NCBI GenBank assembly: GCA_947493035.1 | Contig: CANLOW010000009.1 | Location: forward strand, 1-64,000 | DNA from: an uncultured Aquimarina sp. | GTDB lineage: Bacteria; Bacteroidota; Bacteroidia; Flavobacteriales; Flavobacteriaceae | Direction of reading: 5' to 3' | DNA: 64,000 nucleotides | Part shown: positions 38,817 through 42,814 of the stretch, piece after piece | How the letters are laid out: every line of letters begins with the position of its first letter | Numbering within the stretch: the stretch's first letter is position 1 | The notes under the pieces: model-generated | What the model was told of the DNA's origin: nothing | The model's database searches: none | The model's input: the letters and a program-made list of their open reading frames with translations, nothing else | Program-made: the position numbers and the translations under genes

Positions 38817-40880
38817 ATGAACTGGACATCATTAACAACAATATATGACTGGTTTAAGACTCGAAAAAAACCAACCGAAGCTCAATTTCGTGCAACATGG
38901 AATTCATTTTGGCATAAATCAGAAAAGATTCCAGTTGCTCAAATTGATGGAATTGACGAGCTATTGAACGATCAAGCGGATGCGGATTTGTTAGAATCGC
39001 ATATAAATAATGAAGATAGACACTTGTCGTCAGAGCAGGTTAATGATATTAAGACTATCAAAGACAAGGTTAATAATGATGATCTTCATGAAGTAGCTAA
39101 AACAGGTAGTTTTAATAGTTTAAAGGATAGACCTGTATTCGCAAATGATGGTAGGCTTCATATTATAAGGAGAGCTGAAGTTAGGGATAGGGATTTCATT
39201 TCACACCCTCCAAGCGCCGAGATTGCTAAACCTTCTGCGGGGGATGTTTGTGAAATATTATATATTATAACCAAGTATAAATCTGTATGGCTCTACAATG
39301 GATCTCGCTGGGTTTTTCAATATGAGAGTTCTTATAAGCCCATCAATTCCTTAAGTGATCTAGATGATGATATAGGTATCGTCCCTTCAGGATCAGGTGT
39401 ACACGCTAATGTTCGTGTTAATTATTTGATGGAATCAATATCACGAAACAGATCTCTTTTTAATAATATAACTGTACCTGGTTCAATTTCGGTATCTAAA
39501 TTTCAAGAATTAAGAGATACGTATGAAGATATAGAACAAGCTGAAGCAGCCATCAAATCAGCAGAATTAGATGTATCTATCACTAAAATTCAGTCTATAA
39601 GATATGTTTTTATTAAAAAAAGTATAAGATCCATTAACAGATTGAAGTGCTTAAGGCGCAGTTCGAGACTATCTGTTTACCGAATTATATTATATTCTCA
39701 GACTACCCCCAATTTTAGAGAACACGAATCTCTTTCAATTAGATTTGATGTGAGCTATAGAGATTTAATTGATAGTAGTGATTTTTGGGTTTTTATAGAT
39801 AGAAGTGAAAGAGTATTATCTAGTAGTACTTTGTTTGAAAATATGAACATGGGGGAGGTGTTTATAGAGCATATTGAAGATGCAAGTGATCTTAAAAGTC
39901 ATGTAGAAAATGAAGACCTACACTTACAAAACGACCCGCAAAATCCATTTATTAAACAAGAATACCTAAATAGTGTTGTTGATATACAAGAAAATGGATC
40001 ATTTAAGGTTGGTGGATCGTTTGATAACTTCTACCCTATAGTATTTAAGGGTATAACAAGCTATTCTTTAGATTTAGAAATATATAGGGTTAATGTACAT
40101 CAAAACGGCACTTGGAGAGGATCATTAAGTTTGAAAATACACAACTCTACAATAAGTAATAATGGTCATTCACGAAATAATTTAAAAATGACTCATTACT
40201 GGAGGGGTGACAATAAGTTATGTAGATGGGTCTGCCTCAATGGGCTGAGTACAGAATATGTCGTATACCTTAGAGGCGACACAAACTATCAATATAAATC
40301 TAGCGGGCATGTATCAAAAGATTTAAATACTACAGGAGTAAGGAAAGTACTAGATAATAACCAGTATACTGAAATAGTAAATTCATCTGCATTGACTCCT
40401 GTCGTTTCTGGAAGTGTTAGATTTTTAACAACTCCTGATAATGGTTCGTTTTTTGAACAAGTAAATACTCCTTTACTAGAAAGTAAAAAGATACAAGTCA
40501 CAGATACGGACACTACTTTAGAAAATTTGCCTTATGTCGTTATTGACCCAACTTCAGGAGAATTAAAGAAACTAACCAATTCAGATTGGCAAGACTTATC
40601 TTTAATAACAGGAGCAACAGCTACAATAGCTAGATATCGACGACTAGGCAATTTAATACAAATCCATTTCGAAGATTTATTAAATGATAGACCTTCTGTT
40701 GCTGGGGTTTTTAATGCTCCAAGTATAGAAGTAAGAAAAGTGGTATCATCTAGTGATAAAACTCAATTCGGAACACTCACAGTTACTACGGGCAGTGGAG
40801 TTCCTAATTCAAAATCAGGAATCATAAGAATAGAACCCTTTAATGTTCCTTATTCAGGTTTAATTGAATTTAATATATAG
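38817..40880 (+). CDS. large tail fibre / phage tail protein
   Basis: This is a 687-aa protein. The N-terminus (TTIYDWFKTRKKPTEAQFRA, then WNSFWHKSEKIPVAQI) is the conserved baseplate-anchoring part seen in Bacteroidota phage tail proteins. A degenerate internal repeat is visible: LLESHINNEDRHL (about residues 59-71) and LKSHVENEDLHL (about 361-372). The C-terminal part is beta-rich and ends with a small jelly-roll-like region. It probably determines host binding. The following 138-aa gene may be its assembly partner. Confidence 0.75.
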   Translation: MNWTSLTTIYDWFKTRKKPTEAQFRATWNSFWHKSEKIPVAQIDGIDELLNDQADADLLESHINNEDRHLSSEQVNDIKTIKDKVNNDDLHEVAKTGSFNSLKDRPVFANDGRLHIIRRAEVRDRDFISHPPSAEIAKPSAGDVCEILYIITKYKSVWLYNGSRWVFQYESSYKPINSLSDLDDDIGIVPSGSGVHANVRVNYLMESISRNRSLFNNITVPGSISVSKFQELRDTYEDIEQAEAAIKSAELDVSITKIQSIRYVFIKKSIRSINRLKCLRRSSRLSVYRIILYSQTTPNFREHESLSIRFDVSYRDLIDSSDFWVFIDRSERVLSSSTLFENMNMGEVFIEHIEDASDLKSHVENEDLHLQNDPQNPFIKQEYLNSVVDIQENGSFKVGGSFDNFYPIVFKGITSYSLDLEIYRVNVHQNGTWRGSLSLKIHNSTISNNGHSRNNLKMTHYWRGDNKLCRWVCLNGLSTEYVVYLRGDTNYQYKSSGHVSKDLNTTGVRKVLDNNQYTEIVNSSALTPVVSGSVRFLTTPDNGSFFEQVNTPLLESKKIQVTDTDTTLENLPYVVIDPTSGELKKLTNSDWQDLSLITGATATIARYRRLGNLIQIHFEDLLNDRPSVAGVFNAPSIEVRKVVSSSDKTQFGTLTVTTGSGVPNSKSGIIRIEPFNVPYSGLIEFNI

Positions 40881-40882
40881 CT

Positions 40883-41299
40883 ATGATTACCATCACAACA
40901 AAAAAAGAAGTATGTGTAGACAGGGTTTATACAGAAAAGAAAGGATTAGTACTCTTAAAGATAGAGCCTCCAACATTGTTATCTAATTGGGGAATTAAGT
41001 TTTATATAGATGATTTTTGGCTAAAGCAACAAGAGCTTCCAGATGATGTAGAGTTACAAACAGGTAGTGCTTATGAAGAGGTGAAGATGAATCCCACTTT
41101 TGAAAGAATGGGGGGTAATTTTAGCAAACAAGAAGTAGACTATGTAGAAAATATGTTAACCAAAGCAGGAATCATTAAAGAATCTATGAATGGAAGACAG
41201 AGAACGTTACTAACTATTGCTCATGGTACGATAGGTAGATTAGTTGAAGCAGGTGCTTACGGAGGTTTAAAAACGGAGGATTATGAAATCAAAATATAA
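40883..41299 (+). CDS. hypothetical tail-associated protein
   Basis: This is a 138-aa soluble protein of unknown family immediately after the fibre gene, overlapping the DUF1353 gene by 17 bp. Position suggests a fibre assembly factor. The sequence shows only a mixed alpha/beta pattern and EVDYVENMLTKAGIIKESMN near residue 90. Confidence 0.5.
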   Translation: MITITTKKEVCVDRVYTEKKGLVLLKIEPPTLLSNWGIKFYIDDFWLKQQELPDDVELQTGSAYEEVKMNPTFERMGGNFSKQEVDYVENMLTKAGIIKESMNGRQRTLLTIAHGTIGRLVEAGAYGGLKTEDYEIKI

Positions 41300-41828
41300 T
41301 AGTAATGTAATCCATTACACGGATTTCTATAATGTAGGTTTATTGGATGAAAAGTTACCGACTAATGAGGTTATGCAACTTAGTTATCTTCAAGCTCCTT
41401 ATATTGAATGGACTGAAAGACTACCGAAGACTAAAGAGCATCCTCGCCATTGGATTACGATAATAGATATTGTCTTTACTTTATCTGATGGACGTACAAT
41501 TTTTATTAATAAAGGCACTGTGTGGGATGGTAGTAGTATTCCGAAACCATTGTGGAGAATATTATCTCCATTTGATAAAGCAGTATTTGGGGATTTCATC
41601 CACGATATGCTTTGGAAATTTAAGTATCAAGAAATCGTCCATTTTGTCAAAGTTAATGGTGAATTCAATTTAAATATACACTCAGTTAGGAAGTTTGCAG
41701 ATGATGAACGACATAAATGGCGCTGTCATTTAGCTCCTGAATTAGAGTTAAAAAACGAACTCACTCATTTTGTTGTTCGAAATGTTGGGGGATTGTACTA
41801 TAGTAGGCAAAGAGAAATACCTATTTGA
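41283..41828 (+). CDS. DUF1353 family protein
   Basis: This is a 181-aa protein with the DUF1353 core: FTLSDGRTIFINKGTVWDGS, SIPKPLWRILSPFDKAVFGD, then FIHDMLW. DUF1353 proteins occur in many phages near lysis or tail genes and may be small hydrolases, suggested by the conserved His-Asp. Their role is not established. Confidence 0.8.
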   Translation: MKSKYNSNVIHYTDFYNVGLLDEKLPTNEVMQLSYLQAPYIEWTERLPKTKEHPRHWITIIDIVFTLSDGRTIFINKGTVWDGSSIPKPLWRILSPFDKAVFGDFIHDMLWKFKYQEIVHFVKVNGEFNLNIHSVRKFADDERHKWRCHLAPELELKNELTHFVVRNVGGLYYSRQREIPI

Positions 41829-41869
41829 TTAAGCGTGTATTTTTAACTTAACAAATAGTAAGTTAAGAA

Positions 41870-41987
41870 GCCCCTCGATTTACGAACGACCAAGTTACAT
41901 AAATAGAATTACGAGAACTCCGAACGAGGGGCAATACCTTCATCGAAGAACTCAATAATTTTAAAATGTAACTTGGTCATTGTAAAT
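41870..41987 (+). ncRNA. candidate structured RNA with pseudoknot topology before the methylase gene
   Basis: Two perfect inverted repeats are interleaved. Arms A are GCCCCTCG (41870-41877) and CGAGGGGC (41925-41932). Arms B are GACCAAGTTACAT (41888-41900) and ATGTAACTTGGTC (41966-41978), and B extends by ATTTAC (41878-41883) with GTAAAT (41982-41987) across a small internal loop. The order A-B-A'-B' is that of an H-type pseudoknot. The structure ends 2 nt before the methylase ATG, so folding would hide the start region. It may be a leader that controls methylase translation, or a separate small RNA. No known RNA family was recognised. Confidence 0.6.
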
Positions 41988-41989
41988 AT

Positions 41990-42814
41990 ATGAAAACACC
42001 TATTAGTTATTACGGAGGAAAACAAAATCTTGTAAACACTATACTTCCTTTATTTCCAAAGCATTTACTTTATGCAGAGCCTTTTATTGGTGGTGGCGCT
42101 ATATTTTGGTCTAAACAAAAAAGTGAAATAGAAGTAATCAATGATACAAATAGGGAGTTAATCAACTTCTATGAAGTTATCCAGAATGAGTATGTAGAAC
42201 TTGAAAAAATGGTACGAATAAGCCTTCATAGCCGTTCACTTCATAATGATGCTTCAGTAGTCTATAATAATCCACACATGTTTAGTCGTATAAAAAGAGC
42301 TTGGTCTGTTTGGGTCTTAGCTGCTCAGTCGTTCAGTTCGATGCTTGACAGTACATGGGGTTACGACAAGAAAAGAGCAACTACTAGCCAAAAAGTAACC
42401 AATAAAAGAAATAGCTTTAGTCTAGACTATGCACAACGCATTCAAAATGTTCAAATAGAATGTACAGATGCGCTACGTATAATAAACTCTAGAGACAGCA
42501 AAAATTCCTTCTTTTATTGTGATCCTCCTTATTACAATAGTGATTGTGGTCATTATGATGGTTATACTATAGAGGATTTTGAAAGACTATTGAAGACTTT
42601 ATCTAAAATTGAAGGTACTTTCTTATTATCTAGTTATCCTAGTGAAGTCTTAACAAAGTACACTAAAGACTTCGGTTGGCATAGTAAAGTAATAGAACAA
42701 ACTGTTTCTGTTGCTAATAGTACAAGTAAGCCATCTAAGAAGAAATCGGAGGTTTTAACAGCTAACTACGACTTAAGTAATCCAATGCAACAGAAAACTT
42801 TATTTGATGTTTAA
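41990..42814 (+). CDS. DNA adenine methylase (Dam-like, D12 class)
   Basis: This 274-aa enzyme transfers a methyl group from S-adenosylmethionine to N6 of adenine. The motifs are YYGGKQNLV (residues 7-15), the AdoMet-binding EPFIGGGAIFW (30-40) and the catalytic DPPYYNSDCGHYDGY starting at Asp178. The recognition site cannot be read from the sequence. It is the last phage gene and probably protects the phage genome against host restriction, in the place Mu keeps its mom modification gene. It is preceded by a pseudoknot-like leader. Mom is also tightly controlled, by different means. Confidence 0.9.
   Translation: MKTPISYYGGKQNLVNTILPLFPKHLLYAEPFIGGGAIFWSKQKSEIEVINDTNRELINFYEVIQNEYVELEKMVRISLHSRSLHNDASVVYNNPHMFSRIKRAWSVWVLAAQSFSSMLDSTWGYDKKRATTSQKVTNKRNSFSLDYAQRIQNVQIECTDALRIINSRDSKNSFFYCDPPYYNSDCGHYDGYTIEDFERLLKTLSKIEGTFLLSSYPSEVLTKYTKDFGWHSKVIEQTVSVANSTSKPSKKKSEVLTANYDLSNPMQQKTLFDV

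Follow-up and report, generated by a model that had tools for sequence, protein, structure and literature searches.

A pseudoknot-type RNA family encoded beside DNA-modification genes in phages of Bacteroidota

Antisense RNAs have been described in the EcoRI and Eco29kI restriction-modification systems, and in type I toxin-antitoxin systems the antisense RNA overlaps either the 5′ or the 3′ end of its target mRNA (PMC3874152). In phage Mu, Com is a protein that binds the mom mRNA and activates its translation (PMC6483171), and RCd22, an ncRNA associated with AbiF, binds the AbiF toxin (PMC12373285). The locus described here lies in 64,000 nucleotides of DNA from an uncultured Aquimarina sp. 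(contig CANLOW010000009.1, positions 1 to 64,000; in the following, the window), where we propose a gene for a structured RNA directly next to, and divergent from, an adenine methylase gene of a prophage. Modified DNA is an advantage to a phage in the late stage of infection but may do harm at an early one, and we know of no description of how DNA modification is timed in phages of Bacteroidota.

The RNA locus in the window

The prophage is Mu-like, with genes for a transposase, a transposition ATPase and tail proteins, followed by a DUF1353 gene (41283 to 41828, plus strand; Pfam PF07087, E 1e-6) and, on the same strand, an open reading frame for a D12 class N6-adenine DNA methyltransferase (41990 to 42814; Pfam PF02086, E 8.4e-26). 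Against the NCBIfam family dam, this methylase scores 99.3 bits, which is under the cut-off of 114.85. The proposed RNA gene sits between a late gene and the methylase.

The original prediction had drawn attention to interlocked repeats in this gap, and its description of them proved accurate. Arm A is a perfect inverted repeat of 8 bp (41870 to 41877 and 41925 to 41932), arm B a perfect one of 13 bp (41888 to 41900 and 41966 to 41978), the arms are interlocked in the order A-B-A′-B′, and an extension, ATTTAC/GTAAAT (41878 to 41883 and 41982 to 41987), ends 2 nt short of the ATG at 41990. That chance rarely creates such a pattern was likewise borne out, in that when the 118 nt were dinucleotide-shuffled 20,000 times, a perfect 13-bp inverted repeat arose once and an interlocked 8+8 pair 12 times. 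Both strands also fold better than their shuffled versions, with z-scores of −7.9 for the plus and −5.8 for the minus strand.

Read on the minus strand, the repeats become part of a proposed ncRNA gene of about 115-120 nt (41862 to 41981, with putative ends), which was located by matches to two models of the family, R1 and R2. The R2 match covers 41846 to 41990 with 59.7 bits, the window itself being in the training set of this model, and R1 also matches the minus strand. The gene would be preceded by a predicted −7 promoter box, TATATTTA (41983 to 41990; TAnnTTTG in the family). It continues with the 5′ arm of helix B (41966 to 41978), the 5′ arm of a hairpin C (41951 to 41960), the loop arm A, GCCCCTCG (41925 to 41932), the 3′ arm of hairpin C (41907 to 41915), the 3′ arm of helix B (41888 to 41900) and A′, CGAGGGGC (41870 to 41877), the pseudoknot partner of A. 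Right after A′ follows a T-rich stretch in the sequence, TTCTTAAC (41862 to 41869), which is weak in the window. Helix B is drawn from the perfect repeat and covariation, and the A/A′ pairing from the perfect repeat, covariation and a G-U bias. Hairpin C, drawn from the fold and from covariation in the family, had not been part of the original prediction; it is imperfect in the window and is a feature of the family. The extension ATTTAC/GTAAAT overlaps the −7 box and hence probably lies outside the transcript.

A conserved RNA family

With the methylase protein as query, at least 80 loci on viral contigs and 73 loci in genomes were collected, and many of the leaders in these methylase loci have the same architecture in different letters. 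On the minus strand, members of the family begin with a −7 box of the Bacteroidota type, after which come helix B, hairpin C, a loop arm A that forms a pseudoknot with the 3′ end, and finally a T-run. A strict detector, which required a −7 box, perfect pairing over at least 8 bp in helix B and over at least 6 bp in an interlocked A, and a T-rich end, gave 55 matches in 2.02 Mb (both strands of the window and 153 loci, some of which are copies of one another), 54 of them opposite to the methylase strand and one on it, and no match in dinucleotide-shuffled versions of the same sequences. The single plus-strand match of the detector is at L160:834-932 (+). Of the first set, which comprised 81 sources, 48 had a minus-strand match to R1 at E ≤ 0.001, namely the window and 47 viral loci, and the seeds of R1 itself account for 41 of these 48. 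Among the 73 genome loci, 29 had such a match.

Covariation was evaluated in three alignments. A plain MAFFT alignment of 41 RNAs, from which the helix columns themselves were picked, had 80.9% of the cells in helices B, C and A paired, as compared to 38-47% when slid. In alignment A2 (65 RNAs aligned by R1, a model in which A is not a pair), the paired cells reached 89.8% versus 37-45%, with 481 cells changed on both sides, and in A3 (74 RNAs aligned by R2, 72 of them from outside its training set), helices B and C reached 92.9% versus 33-44%, with 557 cells changed on both sides; the figures for B and C tilt upward in A2 and A3, because both alignments were fitted to these two helices. Two RNAs in A3, those of L211 and L276, are the same as those of L036 and L044. 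The original prediction had called for a covariation analysis of homologous phages, among which a lack of compensatory changes in arms A and B was to count against it, and these changes are strong in both. The letters of A and A′ are conserved, while those of B and C turn over. We regard the identity of the element as a conserved pseudoknot-type RNA as well supported.

Some further structures were considered. RNAalifold recovered only helix A from the first alignment, and a small hairpin D overlapping arm A was discarded as weak (78.0% of cells paired versus 73.5% in shuffles). In 53 of 135 members, L037, L040 and L043 among them, a second, C-rich complement of A′ comes after the T-run, at a distance of 4-37 nt from A′, whereas a control stretch located farther along contained one in 3 of 135. 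This second complement could form a rival hairpin with A′.

In database comparisons of the window and 39 loci, the RNA was not covered by any Rfam 15 match at or above the curated gathering score. The sub-threshold matches (in the window, L054, L056 and L367) are weak, for instance 13 bits for Clostridiales-1, and mostly to microRNAs; they were judged to be due to chance. The RT-3 RNA (RF03068), which occurs near diversity-generating retroelements, is present in some of the same loci, but in L196, L259 and L280 it lies about 2 kb from our RNA and does not overlap it. The order A-B-A′-B′ suggested self-cleaving ribozymes of the HDV-like or twister type, and the scans contained no Rfam ribozyme. 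The helix order of HDV-like and twister ribozymes does not seem to fit this RNA. Direct DNA similarity gave no matching phage record, and 299 genomes of the host family had, besides the window's own copy, only matches of 19-39 bases. A motif named 'D12-methyl' has been published; there was no Rfam match of that name, and the term was not found in the literature searched. The RNA itself was not found among the matches listed in a literature search covering titles and the openings of abstracts, with subscription papers mostly outside its scope.

Genes beside the RNA

With the RNA as the starting point, two degenerate patterns yielded 131 loci on viral contigs (51 and 80). R2 confirmed 72 of these (46 of 51 and 26 of 80), representing 67 distinct RNAs. 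Within 4 kb of 54 of the 67, there is a modification-type gene, of a kind that acts on DNA or on its building blocks, on the opposite strand and divergent from the RNA, as judged with probe proteins that were picked after viewing the first genes of this same set. L222, L197, L199 and L204, as well as L213 and L209 for the HTH types, were sources of probes and match by construction. Among the 54, 45 have a D12, C5 or ParB-fused methylase or Mom, and 9 have only a thymidylate synthase and/or an ABC/GNAT gene; of the other RNAs, 7 of 67 have only a small HTH-like gene and 6 of 67 no recognised neighbour. The 59 loci rejected by R2, which were not matched for host, had a modification-type gene anywhere in just one case. 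In most RNA-first loci, the first gene starts divergently within tens of nucleotides of the RNA. The neighbours include true homologues of Mom (L199, L196 and L235, with Pfam Mom at E 6.7e-61 or better), of which the one in L199 also resembles a methylcarbamoylase Mom of solved structure (8BV8, E 9.4e-21), and the neighbour in L197 is a C5 methylase.

R2 was also run, with strict filters, against overlapping samples of 395 genomes each from the class, the phylum and the order, and matched in 5, 3 and 11 genomes, respectively, giving 18 distinct loci. This prevalence is a lower bound, because the first search pass misses even the window's own copy. In each of the 18, a modification-type gene is encoded divergently on the strand opposite to the RNA, namely a D12 methylase in 9, a thymidylate synthase homologue as the only match in 7, Mom in one and a ParB-like/ABC/GNAT module in one, with L186 and the genome of L188 being the source of two of the probes used for this count. 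The module in L188 has a putative role in modification. The link of the RNA to DNA modification is thus carried by 54 of 67 and 18 of 18 divergent modification-type genes, the Mom homologues among them.

Several other genes recur around the RNA. In the RNA-first loci, the modification genes are often separated from the RNA by a first gene that encodes one of two small HTH-like proteins (L213:91-390 and L190:9349-9591; L209:1115-1459), one of which is phrog_17790. On the other side of the RNA, and just past it, there is a reverse transcriptase of the DGR type in L190:7370-8683 (recognised by sequence) and in hankyphage p00 (L367:980-2284, annotated). In L191:6932-9400, the RNA is accompanied by a module of ParB-like, ABC ATPase, GNAT and formyltransferase genes, possibly a DNA-modification module that has gone unrecognised. 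As in the case of the ParB/ABC/GNAT module, the RNA may flag further modules of this kind.

Among named phages, hankyphage p00 (BK010646) carries the RNA at 40530 to 40693 on the minus strand, which is the RNA of viral locus L300, and Winogradskyella phage Peternella_1 carries that of training locus L050. In hankyphage p00, a hypothetical gene that follows the reverse transcriptase lies on one side of the RNA, and on the other a small gene that precedes those for thymidylate synthase and methylase. Elizabethkingia phage TCUEAP3 and Porphyromonas phage012a have the RNA beside Mom-type genes. No R2 match was obtained in the stretches compared from Bacteroides BF1-TP2, Moraxella Mcat3 and Arthrobacter Liebe, which encode related enzymes. 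Hankyphage is a laboratory system, and directional RNA-seq of its induction in B. thetaiotaomicron jmh43 has been published (PMC12135933) in a paper that does not mention such an RNA in its accessible portion, and the accessible portion of PMC10367356 held nothing relevant. Since one conserved RNA accompanies such a variety of unrelated genes for modification, true Mom homologues and those of the gut Bacteroides hankyphage included, the question of timing becomes testable in that laboratory system.

Strand, position and possible function

Several features bear on the strand from which the RNA is made. At the minus-strand 5′ end, all 131 RNAs have TAnnTTT, followed by G in 95% and by A in 5% (A in the window), though this count is partly circular in that the seeds were chosen by a similar pattern and the viral scans required part of the box. 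A TTTG at −33 with the usual spacing of 19 is present in 13 of 131, and 120 of 135 members have at least 5 T in the 8 nt after A′. In helix A, A2 contains 97 G-U versus 11 A-C cells (37 versus 7 where flanked by Watson-Crick pairs), and helix B has 17 versus 1 at flanked positions (A2 and the unshared rows of A3) and 39 versus 23 over all cells. Helix C has 10 G-U versus 15 A-C at flanked positions and 23 versus 36 over all cells (shared rows left out), and 7 versus 25 in the unshared A3 rows alone. Hence, the orientation of box and T-run, together with the G-U bias in helices A and B, argues for an RNA that is mainly minus-strand and divergent from the methylase, whereas helix C leans to the plus strand, so that the mRNA leader may fold too. 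G-U pairs are scarce overall in B and C, and constraint may act on the two strands alike or on the DNA itself, as would be expected if an mRNA leader and an antisense RNA both fold. The plus-strand matches of R1 are weak (5 in the first set and 1 in the genome loci, E 0.0026 to 0.055) and fall on the same palindromes.

The position of the RNA relative to the methylase is not constant. In eight loci (L043, L045, L051, L055, L113, L120, L125 and L127), a distance of about 640-730 nt separates the end of the match from the methylase downstream, and in L051, the one of the eight that was looked into, a thymidylate synthase homologue lies in between (Pfam E 8.1e-21). In 13 methylase-selected loci with 11 distinct RNAs (L061, L070, L091, L092, L095, L098, L099, L144, L155, L157, L172, L177 and L179), a second subfamily of the same layout is located 3′ of the methylase and convergent with it, and the RNA is therefore not simply a methylase leader. 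The genes next to the 3′-sited RNAs differ between the 12 loci compared, several being host-like, as at a prophage end, whereas in L098 and L144 this place is taken by two small genes with the orientation of the methylase.

From the observed family, fold and adjacency, we infer a mechanism to which we would give about an even chance, namely that an independent minus-strand phage ncRNA gene restrains the neighbouring modification gene as an antisense. The RNA would be made from a host-type promoter, end at the T-run and hold down the modification gene until a late stage of the lytic cycle. On the operon strand, TAnnTTTG is absent from inside the RNA gene in 131 of 131 cases (a raw count, given without an expected number), such that the neighbour is probably read from upstream; its mRNA would then, in the main arrangement, carry the exact complement of the RNA just before the start codon. 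The two RNAs would pair, or their transcription would collide, and either event would block the mRNA or lead to its destruction, until strong transcription of the late operon lets the mRNA outrun the RNA. An RNA 3′ of the methylase would meet the 3′ end of the mRNA instead. The fold would serve stability and termination, and the plus-strand leader may fold as well, as helix C suggests. With unrelated enzymes swapped beside one and the same RNA, restraint at the RNA level is the simplest reading. Several points speak against it, however. Helix C leans to the plus strand and does not favour the minus strand, plain antisense pairing has no need of conserved letters in A and A′, and the 3′-sited subfamily cannot act on a leader. 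Furthermore, few RNAs have a −33 element, 7 of the 67 RNA-first RNAs have an HTH-like gene only and 6 have no recognised neighbour, and the copy in the window has both a weak box (TATATTTA) and a weak T-run.

A role in trans keeps some plausibility, because the letters of A/A′ are conserved and a 3′-sited subfamily exists. Tentatively, then, the structured RNA could act in counter-defence or be directed at the host, binding a protein or a host RNA via the conserved A/A′ and AAGG region; its location would reflect a clustering of anti-restriction genes, or the RNA would work together with the modification genes. Its own −7 box and T-run fit such a role, as does the retention of the A/A′ letters amid the turnover in B and C. 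The divergent first gene within tens of nucleotides in most RNA-first loci counts against it and suggests regulatory coupling. In a related and equally tentative proposal, one RNA family might be a general partner of viral DNA modification, acting in trans within a modification/counter-restriction programme rather than as a simple antisense switch, and would in Bacteroidota phages span N6-methyl, C5-methyl, Mom-type and thymidylate-synthase-type chemistries as well as the ParB/ABC/GNAT module.

The original prediction had favoured a plus-strand, cis-regulatory leader of the methylase mRNA, which we now consider unlikely. The site just before the ATG, the leaning of helix C to the plus strand and the scarcity of G-U in B and C, which looks like a constraint on either strand, are in its favour. 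The G-U bias of helices A and B and the orientation of box and T-run point the other way, and in 21 loci the RNA either precedes a gene other than the methylase or lies 3′ of the methylase; the RNA also precedes genes for Mom, C5 methylase, thymidylate synthase and ParB-methylase, which speaks against a dedicated methylase leader. A phage small RNA, which had been listed as an option, fits best. Finally, an element acting as DNA, be it a cruciform, a protein-binding site or a recombination site for the exchange of accessory genes, with no functional RNA, would account for the few G-U pairs in B and C and for very different modification genes beside the same element, but is highly improbable in view of the directional features at both ends and the 97:11 bias in helix A.

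Returning to the antisense reading, the closest parallels are in the EcoRI and Eco29kI systems, where, as predicted here, a reverse promoter lies beside a DNA-modification gene (PMC3874152). The difference is that a single pseudoknotted family is found here beside unrelated phage enzymes, and that a restriction gene is not part of the pattern seen. With mom and Com of Mu, our system shares Mom-type modification in Mu-like phages and, as we propose, control of a modification gene at the RNA level, yet Com is a protein (PMC6483171), whereas we propose an RNA with its own gene on the opposite strand. RCd22 is likewise a structured prophage ncRNA beside a gene and controls this neighbour (PMC12373285), as our RNA would; unlike the toxin-binding RCd22, it is accompanied by unrelated modification enzymes (D12, C5, Mom, ParB/ABC and thymidylate synthase), and no AbiF gene came to notice in the loci that were viewed. 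Judging from its sequence context, the RNA may therefore be a shared part of how these phages handle DNA modification.
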